A stretch of DNA of 61,651 nucleotides. Source: an uncultured Bacteroidales bacterium. GTDB taxonomy: Bacteria; Bacteroidota; Bacteroidia; Bacteroidales; UBA932. Numbering within the stretch: the stretch's first letter is position 1; each line of letters starts with the position of its first letter. The stretch covers positions 1-61,651 of the forward strand of contig CAJONI010000019.1 in NCBI GenBank assembly GCA_905235995.1. Reading direction: 5' to 3'. Position numbers and translations under genes: made by a program. Positions 8,646 to 34,640 of this stretch are shown piece after piece. The notes under the pieces are model-generated. The model did no database searches, was not told the DNA's origin, and saw nothing but the letters and a program-made list of their open reading frames with translations.

Positions 8646-8676
8646 TTGAGCTGGTGGCAAGGGCGTAGCAGGCGGG

Positions 8677-8755
8677 TGGCTTTTGGAGCCGCGAGCATTT
8701 TTCTGCGAGCGGGACAAAAGCCAGAGCCGCAAAGCCCGTAGAGCCGCGAAGCCCG
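8677..8755 (+). repeat. Structured leader / repeat element upstream of malQ
   Basis: A 9-bp perfect inverted repeat (TGGCTTTTG 8677-8685; CAAAAGCCA 8715-8723) encloses a second stem CCGC (8689-8692)/GCGG (8709-8712) and a third GCA/TGC (8695-8697/8704-8706) capped by TTTTTC. The stems are separated by GA-rich internal loops that could form tandem G-A pairs. Downstream are two near-identical 15-mers, GAGCCGCAAAGCCCG (8724-8738) and GAGCCGCGAAGCCCG (8741-8755), and a partial third copy at 8686-8694. No known riboswitch class is recognised. It may be an interspersed repeat or a cis-regulatory RNA. Confidence 0.5.
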
Positions 8756-12151: not shown

Positions 12152-13318
12152 GTGAAGATATTGTTTGTACTTAATAATTTTTACATGCAGGGCAACGGTC
12201 TGGCCTCATCCGCGAGGCGGACCGTCCAATATCTGAAGGAGGCCGGAGAAGACGTACGCGTGCTCTCCGGACCGAATCCCGACCCCAATGGTCCCCAGCC
12301 CGATTTTCTGCTCAAGCGCTTCGACTTCCCGTTCGTTCAGCCCATAGTCACCGCGCAGGGCTACCAATTCGCAGCCAGCGTACCCGAAGTCATGGAAGAA
12401 GCCGTACGCTGGGCCGACGTGGTCCATCTTGAGGAACCCTTCGTGATTGAAGACCGCCTTATCAAGATAGCGGAGAAGCAGGGCAAGCCCATCTCGGCCA
12501 CCTATCATCTCCATCCCGAGAACATCACCAACTCGCTGGGGCCGCTCCGCAACTGGAAAGGTCTCAACCGGAAGATCCTCAGGAGCTGGTGCGACCTGAC
12601 TTTCAGCCATTGCAGCTTCGTGCAGTGCCCTACTGAGAACGTACAGGACCGTCTGCGCCGCTACCATCTCCCCAATCCGACCTACGTCATATCCAACGGG
12701 GTGGAGCCTGACGAGAGCATACGGCCCGTCGATCCTCCGAAGGGCTACGATGATCCCGAGCGTCCGCTCCATGTGGTCTATATCGGACGGCTGACGCTGG
12801 AAAAAGACCAGGACACTTTGCTGGATGCCATGCGCTACAGCAAATTCGCCAGGCGGATCCAACTGCACTTCGCCGGCAAAGGCCCTGACGAACGGCGTAT
12901 CAAGCGCAAGGCGCACAAACTCTTCACCGACGGAGTGCTGGCCTACGACCCTGTTTTCACTTTCGAAGATCGCAACGGGCTGCGCCGTCTGGCAGCAGAG
13001 GCCGATCTCTGCGTCCATTGCGCCACCGTCGAAGTGGAAGGCCTTTCCATCATGGAAGCCATGCAGCAGGGTGTCGTCCCCATCATCGCCGCCGGCCGCT
13101 ACAGCGGCACCTCCCAGTTCGCCATCGACAAGCGCAGCGTCTTCCCGGAAAGGAATCCGGAAGCGCTCGCCCACCGCATCGACTACTGGCTCTCTCATCC
13201 TGCCGAACGCTGGGTCACAGGCCAGCGCTATGTGGAGCACATGCAGCAGTACAACATACGCCGCTCCGTAGAGCAGCTTATCGTCCTGTTCAAACAGGTT
13301 ACAGGAATCAGCGAATGA
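12152..13318 (+). CDS. Glycosyltransferase family 4
   Basis: 388 residues with two Rossmann halves (GT-B fold). The N-terminal acceptor half begins VKILFVLNNFYMQGNGLASS. The C-terminal nucleotide-sugar half has VVYIGRLTLEKDQDTLLDAM and the E-x7-E donor motif in VEGLSIMEAMQQGVVP. I chose the GTG at 12152 because it gives the normal GT4 first strand and lies 24 bases after a strong -7 box. The ATG at 12089 belongs to the upstream terminator repeat. The likely role is transfer of a sugar to a lipid or surface glycan, but donor and acceptor are unknown. Its 3' end overlaps prmC by 11 bp, convergently. Confidence 0.8.
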   Translation: MKILFVLNNFYMQGNGLASSARRTVQYLKEAGEDVRVLSGPNPDPNGPQPDFLLKRFDFPFVQPIVTAQGYQFAASVPEVMEEAVRWADVVHLEEPFVIEDRLIKIAEKQGKPISATYHLHPENITNSLGPLRNWKGLNRKILRSWCDLTFSHCSFVQCPTENVQDRLRRYHLPNPTYVISNGVEPDESIRPVDPPKGYDDPERPLHVVYIGRLTLEKDQDTLLDAMRYSKFARRIQLHFAGKGPDERRIKRKAHKLFTDGVLAYDPVFTFEDRNGLRRLAAEADLCVHCATVEVEGLSIMEAMQQGVVPIIAAGRYSGTSQFAIDKRSVFPERNPEALAHRIDYWLSHPAERWVTGQRYVEHMQQYNIRRSVEQLIVLFKQVTGISE

Positions 13319-14222
13319 CGAAGCGGTCGCGGCCGGAGAGGTCTTTCTCCAGCCGGGAACCGGGGAAAAGGGCGGCCGTTTCAGAGCCGAAACGCTCGTT
13401 TATTTCCAGATACACATGACCGTCAGGACGAAGCAGGGCTTCGGCCCAGCGGGCGACTGCGCGGTAGAACTTCAGGGGGTCCTCGTCGGGGACGAAGAGC
13501 GCTTCGGCGGGTTCGAAGTCCAGGACGTTCGGTCGCATGGCGGAGCGCTCGCTTTCGCAGATGTACGGCGGGTTCGACACCATGACGTCGAACTTCGGCA
13601 GTCCGGCGGGCGGTGCGGACAGGATATCGGCCGAGAAGAAAACGGGCTTGGCGCCGCGAACCTTGATGCGCTGCCGGCAGGCATGGCGCAGGGCGGCATC
13701 CGAAATGTCGCAGCCGTAGACCATCGCCTCGCGGAATTCCGCAGCCAGCGACCATGCTATGCAGCCCGAACCGGTGCAGAGGTCAAGGATGTTGAAAGGC
13801 TCCTCGCCTATCTCCGTCCCGGACAAGTCATCGATGATACGCGAAACCATCTCTTCGGTTTCAGGACGCGGGATGAGGCAACCCTCGCCCACCCTGAAAC
13901 GATGGCCGCAGAACTCCGTGAACCCCAACACATACTGCAACGGCCTGCCAGTAGAAAGATCCTCAAGAGCGGCGACAATGTCGTTGCTAGAAGCGGAATT
14001 GAGCGGGTGATATTGCGTCTGGACCGCATTTATCTGCGGTCCAGACGCAATATCAGAGCGAAATGGAGCGTTTAAGACAAGATCGGGATCTGATATATAC
14101 TTATAGGAAGGAATCTCGAGAAAGTGCTCCAGCAGGCGGAAGGCCATGGCCTTGGCCTCCGGCTCCGGATACAGAGGAGCGAGCCGGGAGACGCAAAGAG
14201 CCACGAATTCTCCGAGAGTCAT
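13308..14222 (-). CDS. prmC: Peptide chain release factor N5-glutamine methyltransferase
   Basis: 304 residues. An N-terminal helical domain (1 to about 50) binds release factor. The SAM domain has LIPRPETEE, LDLCTGSGCIAWSL (motif I) and the catalytic SNPPYI. PrmC methylates the GGQ glutamine of RF1 and RF2. Oddity: residues about 57-72 (DIASGPQINAVQTQYH) are encoded by a perfect 48-nt palindrome at 14008-14055, inserted in frame in the linker before STGRPLQYVLG; family members normally lack this. Start chosen at 14222 (MTLGEFVALC), the only start matching the family N-terminus. Last gene of the PBP1A-ddl-prmC run; overlaps the GT4 end by 11 bp. Confidence 0.92.
   Translation of the reverse strand: MTLGEFVALCVSRLAPLYPEPEAKAMAFRLLEHFLEIPSYKYISDPDLVLNAPFRSDIASGPQINAVQTQYHPLNSASSNDIVAALEDLSTGRPLQYVLGFTEFCGHRFRVGEGCLIPRPETEEMVSRIIDDLSGTEIGEEPFNILDLCTGSGCIAWSLAAEFREAMVYGCDISDAALRHACRQRIKVRGAKPVFFSADILSAPPAGLPKFDVMVSNPPYICESERSAMRPNVLDFEPAEALFVPDEDPLKFYRAVARWAEALLRPDGHVYLEINERFGSETAALFPGSRLEKDLSGRDRFVIR
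14008..14055 (-). repeat. 48-nt perfect palindrome inserted in frame in prmC
   Basis: Two 21-nt arms (14008-14028 and 14035-14055) are exact reverse complements, separated by the loop TTTATC (14029-14034). The total is 48 nt, exactly 16 codons. On the coding strand it opens T|GAT|ATT|GCG, so the TGA at its edge is out of frame and no stop arises. The insert lies in the linker between the helical domain and the catalytic domain. No other copy is visible in the window. Confidence 0.85.
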
Positions 14223-33692: not shown

Positions 33693-33723
33693 TTGCGCTA
33701 ATCCTTCATATCCCAAAAATAAT

Positions 33724-33731
33724 TATCTTTG
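33724..33731 (+). promoter_or_regulatory. -7 box for the methyltransferase-lgt-CNNM-miaA run
   Basis: TATCTTTG, exact match, ending 6 bases before the ATG at 33738. Confidence 0.55.
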
Positions 33732-33737
33732 TGGGAT

Positions 33738-34640
33738 ATGACGATTGAGCAACCTTCCGCCGCATGGCGCGACTACGAGCTGATAGACTCGGGCGACTTT
33801 TCGAAGCTCGAGCGCTTCGGCCCGTATGTCGCTATAAGGCCCGAACCCAAGGCCCTCTGGCCCAAGAGCTTGCCTGAGAGCCAGTGGCGAAGCATGGCCC
33901 ACACCGAATTCAAGCCCGGTGCAGGTTTCGGCAAAGCCGGCAAGGAAGACAGCGGGACCTGGCAGATGCTCCACCCCATGCAGGAGCAGTGGCCCATCTC
34001 CTATCCCGCGGTGGGCTTCAAGCTGAGGCTCGGCCTTACCGCCTTCAAGCACGTGGGCGTCTTCCCTGAGCAGGCCCCTAACTGGGATTTCATCGCCAGC
34101 AGCGTGAAGGAACTTGCGAAAGGTCAGCAGGAGCCGCCCAAAGTGCTCAACCTTTTCGCCTACACCGGTGCTGCGTCGCTTGCCGCCCTCAAGGCCGGGG
34201 CAGCCGTCACCCATCTGGACTCCGTCCGCCAGGTCGTCACCTGGGCCCGCGGCAACATGGAGCTGAGCGGACTGGACGGCATACGCTGGATAGTGGAGGA
34301 CGCCCTCAAGTTCGCCCGCAGGGAAGCCCGGCGCGGCAACCGCTACCAGGGCATCATCCTCGACCCTCCCGCCTATGGCCACGGCCCCGACGGAGAGCGA
34401 TGGAAGCTCGACGAATGCCTCTACGACCTGCTTGAGCAGTGTGCCGCGATCCTGGCTCCCGAGCGGAGCTTCCTGGTGCTCAACCTCTATTCCAACGGCT
34501 ACTCGGCCGTGCTGGCCGACACGCTGGTACGCAACGCTTTCGGCACAAAGTTCGCAAGCTGTGACTACGGCGAGCTGGTGCTCCGCGACCGTGCCGGACG
34601 GGCCCTGCCCCTCAGCGTTTTCTCCCGATTAAAAAGATAA
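33738..34640 (+). CDS. Class I SAM-dependent (probably rRNA cytosine) methyltransferase
   Basis: 300 residues. VLNLFAYTGAASLAALKAGA is the SAM-binding motif I, LDSVRQVVTWARGN motif II, and ILDPPAYG the DPPxY catalytic-type motif of the RlmI/RlmK-like family acting on rRNA. It lacks the N-terminal PUA domain of RlmI; the N-terminal 100 residues are of the short Bacteroidota type. The ATG at 33738 lies just after a -7 box; the upstream TTG is inside that box. lgt follows after 5 bases. Confidence 0.8.
   Translation: MTIEQPSAAWRDYELIDSGDFSKLERFGPYVAIRPEPKALWPKSLPESQWRSMAHTEFKPGAGFGKAGKEDSGTWQMLHPMQEQWPISYPAVGFKLRLGLTAFKHVGVFPEQAPNWDFIASSVKELAKGQQEPPKVLNLFAYTGAASLAALKAGAAVTHLDSVRQVVTWARGNMELSGLDGIRWIVEDALKFARREARRGNRYQGIILDPPAYGHGPDGERWKLDECLYDLLEQCAAILAPERSFLVLNLYSNGYSAVLADTLVRNAFGTKFASCDYGELVLRDRAGRALPLSVFSRLKR

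Follow-up and report, generated by a model that had tools for sequence, protein, structure and literature searches.

Palindromic repeats within protein genes are already known from Rickettsia and from REP-rich bacteria, and an uncultured Bacteroidales genus is a further case. Rickettsia palindromic elements (RPEs) are described as palindromic repeats of about 150 bp (PMC10969869), which occur in frame in many unrelated proteins (PMC10969869; PMC5656822). The GTAG- and CGTC-tagged REPs are described in PMC3733652 as short palindromes of 20-40 bp, mostly intergenic, with some located inside ORFs in several bacteria. The CGTC repeats, which carry CGTC at one end and have a stem of 8-9 bp and a loop of 4-5, are already listed there for Bacteroidetes. 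The hairpins of RAYT-linked REPs and REPINs are held, according to PMC6006769, to be processed by HUH/Y1 enzymes on single-stranded DNA. Perfect inverted repeats in protein genes, with arms that evolve in concert, are also described for the mitochondria of Nematomorpha (PMC6649704).

We analysed a window of 61,651 nt from an uncultured Bacteroidales bacterium (contig CAJONI010000019.1 of assembly GCA_905235995.1; the genome is called G000 below), whose prmC gene contains a perfect palindrome. The features that matter here are listed first; R1 is the covariance model of the repeat family.

13308-14222, minus strand: prmC, release factor glutamine methyltransferase, 304 aa (13311-14222 without the stop codon)
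13992-14071, plus strand: whole palindromic element, R1 match 1-80 of 80, 92.3 bits; in the orientation of the family the loop reads TTTATC
13992-14007, plus strand: left outer arm, partly paired, ending in GCGGG (from the alignment of element rows and pair counts)
14008-14028, plus strand: left perfect 21-nt arm, TGATATTGCGTCTGGACCGCA
14029-14034, plus strand: loop TTTATC, 6 nt (the commonest loop of the family, in the alignment of element rows, is TTTTTC)
14035-14055, plus strand: right perfect 21-nt arm, TGCGGTCCAGACGCAATATCA
14056-14071, plus strand: right outer arm, starting with GAGC (from the alignment of element rows and pair counts)
8662-8737, plus strand: second element, R1 52.6 bits, E 7e-15, between two divergent genes

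The segment in prmC is very probably a member of a family of mobile palindromic elements, restricted to one genus and each about 72-83 nt long, which are located both between genes and in frame within them and whose hairpin seems to be constrained at the level of DNA. The best reading is that these are mobile REP/MITE-like palindromes, which would be tolerated in protein loops.

Like the RPEs, the element is palindromic and lies in frame in unrelated conserved genes. The likeness is one of description: the RPEs belong to another phylum and are about 150 bp in the account of PMC10969869, whereas the element is about 80 nt and has a stem that varies by paired changes. It differs from a CGTC-tagged REP in its length (about 72-83 nt) and in lacking the CGTC tag in the family alignment. 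Moreover, whereas the tag of a GTAG-tagged REP is terminal, GTAG occurs here internally, at positions 4-7 in the outer arm, in 28 of 95 copies (GNAG at that position in 64 of 95). REPINs are paired short REPs. The hairpin and the presence of Y1 transposases in the genus recall RAYT-linked REPs and REPINs, but the element is one long hairpin, and whereas a RAYT-linked REP flanks a RAYT gene, the element did so at none of the 35 Y1 places examined, of 68 listed. A MITE of a DDE insertion sequence would be accompanied by a target-site duplication, which the 95 copies lack (mean shared flank word 3.37, as against 3.35 in the null; a word of at least 6 in 4 of the 95). For the coding palindromes of Nematomorpha, the passages of PMC6649704 considered here describe no dispersed family, whereas copies of the element are scattered and have their ends and loop in common. 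Since the element has neither tag and no adjoining transposase, we file it as an element that behaves like an RPE or REP and do not claim membership.

The palindrome in prmC and its extent

The prmC product scored 147.9 bits against hemK_fam (TIGR00536), above the cut-off of 115.5, and 191.3 bits against RF_mod_PrmC (TIGR03534), below the cut-off of 199.1. The start codon was chosen at 14222; the open frame extends to 14312. An earlier note on this DNA had reported a perfect palindrome in frame in prmC at 14008-14055, and this was confirmed, the two arms of 21 nt being 100% complementary over their whole length and spaced by 6 nt. In simulations (n=30 sequences with the nearest-neighbour frequencies of the window; hairpin loop 3-20), the longest perfect hairpin arm was 9-15 nt, as against the 21 nt observed. 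The palindrome encodes DIASGPQINAVQTQYH. The same note had taken these 48 nt for the complete unit; comparison with relatives gave a unit of about 80 nt (13992-14071), in which the 48 nt form the core and are enclosed by the outer arms AGCGGAATTGAGCGGG and GAGCGAAATGGAGCGT. The extra peptide contributed to PrmC by the full element is thus about 26-27 aa long, about NAPFRSDIASGPQINAVQTQYHPLNSA.

The position of the insert was also revised. In solved HemK/PrmC chains with the N-terminal domain, the sequence match starts at residues 81-84, just after the insert. Given the anatomy of PrmC, the site would be a loop that precedes the final helix of this domain, rather than the linker proper, in which it had initially been placed.

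The second element of the window lies between genes that, read by eye, are radA-like and encode a CBM20-type glucanotransferase (locus L129). Elsewhere in the window, positions 33697-33750 hold an imperfect 23-nt inverted repeat (78% complementary) without a match to the element model.

A repeat family confined to one genus

Apart from the copy in the window, a search with the 84-nt segment returned a single relative, at 75%, and no second exact 21-nt arm was found when one was looked for. The earlier note had held that an arm occurring only once would speak against a mobile element. This does not apply: the family is common even though no repeat of the exact arm was found, since the letters of the stem change from copy to copy and its pairing is for the most part preserved. 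It was uncovered by patterns on the element ends, after which R1 was built from nine aligned copies, the one at 13992-14071 among them. Of 100 related genomes, 5 had copies by the end pattern, and each of them belongs to the same genus as G000. The nine copies have about 80 nt in common: a T-rich loop, a stem base marked by TGRTATT and AATAYCA, and outer arms in which GCGNAGC-like words are frequent and which mostly have GCGGG and GAGC adjoining the stem. Across the family as a whole, the hairpins resemble one another at their ends (mostly GCGGGTGRT...AYCAGAGC) and have a T-rich loop, and the stem varies.

R1 matched G000 at 33 places. Of these, 29 count as separate strong elements, and the window contains two of them. 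The remaining four rows comprise two reverse readings, one full-length match (C20:63350-63424, E 2e-6) and one partial match (C42:39537-39583, E 0.004). Up to 117 candidates were scored per genome in the survey of the genus, so that copy numbers are lower bounds; among the candidates scored, 21 of 40 genomes had a match at E 0.01, clear in 18 and limited to one weak match in three. Under stricter filters and at E 1e-6, the survey of the taxonomic family, a sample from a larger group, gave matches in 13 of 239 genomes, none of them outside this genus (1 of 25 genera), and the survey of the order, again a sample under stricter filters, gave one in 393, the window's own (1 of 207 genera). The repeat family was therefore found in no other genus sampled.

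A pattern scan of genome contigs found 38 stretches, three of which (Anaerocolumna, bacterium BF2 bin and Agrobacterium) were rejected as chance, having no model match at E 0.01. Where records with the pattern are named, they are MAGs of uncultured Bacteroidales or Bacteroidia, and several carry the label rumen, reticulum or omasum. None of the 57 pattern hits in viral contigs matched the model at E 0.01, so these hits give no sign of phage carriage. No earlier description of such an element in Bacteroidales was found in the literature covered, which included few subscription papers.

In a PrmC tree of 30 genomes, several forks of which are weakly supported, 15 of the 16 species of one clade have elements. 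Genome G003 (98% complete) lies within this element-carrying clade and had no element match among the candidates scored; G032 lies outside it, yet has at least 10 matches. Comparison with G003 would be useful for tracing a mobilising gene.

Copies inside protein genes

Nine of the 29 elements of G000 lie in frame within genes that have Pfam or NCBIfam matches, some of these below NCBIfam cut-offs. The carriers are PrmC, a WbqC-like protein, a NapG/H-like ferredoxin, CbiG, DnaX, a TIGR00275 flavoprotein, CobD, a cobalamin adenosyltransferase and a ComEA-like protein; the other 20 elements are intergenic or were left unresolved by a simple codon score. A single cobalamin gene cluster (L240, C42:1-20000) contains three in-frame elements, in CbiG, the adenosyltransferase and CobD. 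Carriers in other species include genes for a SpoU-type methyltransferase, DNA alkylation repair, a MacB/FtsX permease, an alpha-amylase, GH88 and ABC transporters. The in-frame elements use at least three of the six reading frames, and some copies are antisense to the genes containing them.

In CobD the element is present in 7 of 23 loci, five times in sense and twice in antisense orientation, which indicates either repeated entry into this loop or inversion of the element within it. Conserved proteins of this genus seem to be gaining new loops from mobile DNA. The likeness to RPEs, already drawn from the window alone, is upheld by the nine gene cases of G000 together with the hydF pair described below.

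In other species (L183-L186 and L196), this CobD loop holds yet another palindrome, of a third kind, in which the words AGAACCTTTT and GAAAGAACCT, or their complements, can be recognised by eye.

Filled and empty sites

Several copies within G000 are nearly identical: L131, L132 and L133 differ from one another at 1-2 positions in 77 nt, and L119 and L123 at two in 75 nt. Their 60-nt flanks are unrelated (15-21 of 60 positions identical). Another near-identical pair, L127/L130, was set aside as evidence of copying, its flanks being alike too. At L131 (positions 1501-2493 of the locus, G000 C5:12545-13537), two copies in the same orientation, differing at 1 nt, bracket a small gene pair of toxin-antitoxin appearance; the second gene matches antitoxin TIGR03070 (E 2.5e-9, below the cut-off) and the first has no NCBIfam match.

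The sister genomes G033, G018 and G036 provided three pairs of filled and empty sites. The first, intergenic, is filled at G033 C8:19400-19478 and also in G018, with a different stem, and is empty in G036. The second is filled at G033 C2:268274-268350, inside hydF, and G036 has a hydF without the element; the third is filled at G033 C2:99457-99533 and empty in G018. Between shared motifs, the hydF of G036 is 23 codons shorter (69 nt net) and both frames are open. TIGR03918 is above cut-off in both proteins, its match being divided into three stretches in the filled one and continuous in the empty one. As the net difference of 69 nt is smaller than the model match of 77 nt, some local sequence differs too, and the two genes are not related by simple insertion of the complete unit. 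A conserved enzyme gene that is filled in one sister genome and empty in another makes the mobile-DNA origin of protein loops testable in another phylum.

The three clean pairs came from 18 stretches around elements of G033; two others (L300 and L305) aligned but were rearranged, and for 13 the compared parts of G036 and G018 offered no counterpart that could be used. Single sites do not tell gain from loss, and the filled and empty pairs could be losses rather than gains. By eye, CobD in G027 and G034 resembles the scar of a lost hairpin of which the outer arms were kept. Taken with the 29 strong elements of G000 and the near-identical copies in unrelated flanks, the three pairs nevertheless bear out the view of the earlier note that the palindrome is a mobile element.

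A possible mobilising enzyme

The folded single-stranded hairpin may be moved by an enzyme acting in trans, of HUH/Y1 type or similar, and one arm may be copied onto the other during replication or repair. The carrier proteins would remain functional with the extra loop, and we assume no advantage for the host.

A narrower form of this explanation, in which a REP-like element is mobilised in trans by a Y1/RAYT-type transposase of the genus, seems to us rather unlikely, though it has several observations on its side. Y1_Tnp (PF01797) was detected in 27 of the 40 genomes of the genus (68 places listed, two of them in G000), the absence of a target duplication fits such an enzyme, and a hairpin of at least 11 bp, often with a T-rich loop, adjoins 15 of the 29 Y1 genes analysed (L144-L175; three further loci gave no gene). 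Seven of these 15 genes have hairpins on both sides with similar stems, and the stems differ between genes. They are, however, unlike the stem of the element, and no family element was present in the compared stretch at any of the 35 Y1 places (30 loci and six stretches, one place being common to both; the other 33 places listed were outside the set). The element is also longer than the REPs of 20-40 bp described in PMC3733652, and G018, a draft genome, has at least eight element matches and no Y1 match.

Maintenance of the hairpin

The arms of the element change in pairs. Across 93 distinct rows (including two reverse readings), 338 cells were changed on both sides and still paired, whereas shuffled controls gave 82 (sd 7) and slid controls 40-67. 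The alignment had been made to fit the structure of the model, and the cells are not independent events. RNase P from 30 genomes of the genus served as a control; its pairs were predicted on the RNase P alignment itself, a procedure that may be biased towards G-U pairs and kept pairs. Only 1.2% of the paired cells of the elements were G-U, against 10.2% in RNase P, and one-sided changes made up 6.0% of changes, against 36.9%. Unpaired cells numbered 171 of 2114 in element stems and 25 of 2639 in RNase P, whose pairs were chosen as kept. In five likely orthologous coding pairs we counted six paired changes, one G-U and six pair-breaking changes; the signal of pairing within sites is weak, and that across the family much stronger. 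The scarcity of G-U pairs, together with the paired changes of the arms, suggests that the hairpin is maintained as DNA and not as RNA. It also suggests a simple sequence test for distinguishing hairpins kept as DNA from those kept as RNA.

A strong stem-loop with covariation would likewise be expected of a structured RNA element (a terminator, mRNA stabiliser or riboregulator) that happens to fall in genes, and several copies do lie within some tens of nucleotides past stop codons. This explanation is improbable in view of the G-U frequencies given above and of the copies that are antisense to the genes containing them. Moreover, the T-run is located in the loop and not after the stem (at least six T in the next 12 nt in 7 of 95 copies, mean 2.86), and Rfam gave no match at the gathering score for 10 loci, the best being a chance hit with E 0.26.

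Just as improbable, as the sole process, is local growth of palindromes, that is, correction of quasi-palindromes by template switching without transposition. It would account for the paired changes, for the arms of 20-21 nt that are perfect in 3 of 97 rows, and for a resemblance to the concerted arm evolution described for coding palindromes of Nematomorpha mitochondria (PMC6649704). The shared ends, loop and outer arms, and the copies that differ by 1-2 nt in unrelated flanks, require copying between loci, and the presence or absence of the unit between sister genomes likewise argues against it. Local growth may act alongside mobility. A connection of perfect arms with coding position was considered and dropped, as L096, one of the three perfect copies, has no clear gene context.

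Returning to a mobile palindrome, we tentatively propose, while giving the proposal somewhat less than an even chance, that the family represents a new class of DNA-hairpin mobile elements whose identity lies in the fold and not in the sequence of the stem. An enzyme acting in trans would read the ends, loop and pairing, copying between arms would keep the palindrome as the stem drifted, and peptide loops would be seeded repeatedly. If this were true, the loops in this genus would have been seeded in either orientation and in several frames, at sites where core enzymes such as PrmC and CobD permit it; other palindrome families would use these sites as well.

The insertion site in PrmC of relatives

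Alignment of PrmC from relatives, a check suggested in the earlier note, was made with 30 orthologs, from 30 of the 39 genomes with a match. By the model, the element is present at two of these loci (G000 and G004) and 28 have no match. The earlier note had called the insertion recent; this is not supported, since a second species, G004, also carries an element at this prmC site, and its arms are different yet likewise perfect. The two copies differ at 7 of 20 arm positions and are not each other's nearest relatives, and they may be separate insertions. That the segment is simply a native PrmC loop, palindromic by chance or through selection on the protein, is highly improbable despite the variability of PrmC loops in the genus, given the 28 loci without a model match, the occurrence of other family members in unrelated proteins and in intergenic positions, and the simulations, which exclude chance.

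Other repeats occur in the same loop. By eye, six orthologs have clear CGTC-type repeats in it (L012, L013 and L026-L029, the loci of G027, G024, G036, G033, G018 and G029), with palindromes such as GTCATTCC.GGCTTGACC.GGAATC and alike, read as RHSGLDPES or RHSRLDRES. The PrmC of G011 shows, again by eye, an apparent half element beside a CGTC-type repeat. Another loop of the protein, located after PETEELVSRIIDDLY, is strongly variable in length.
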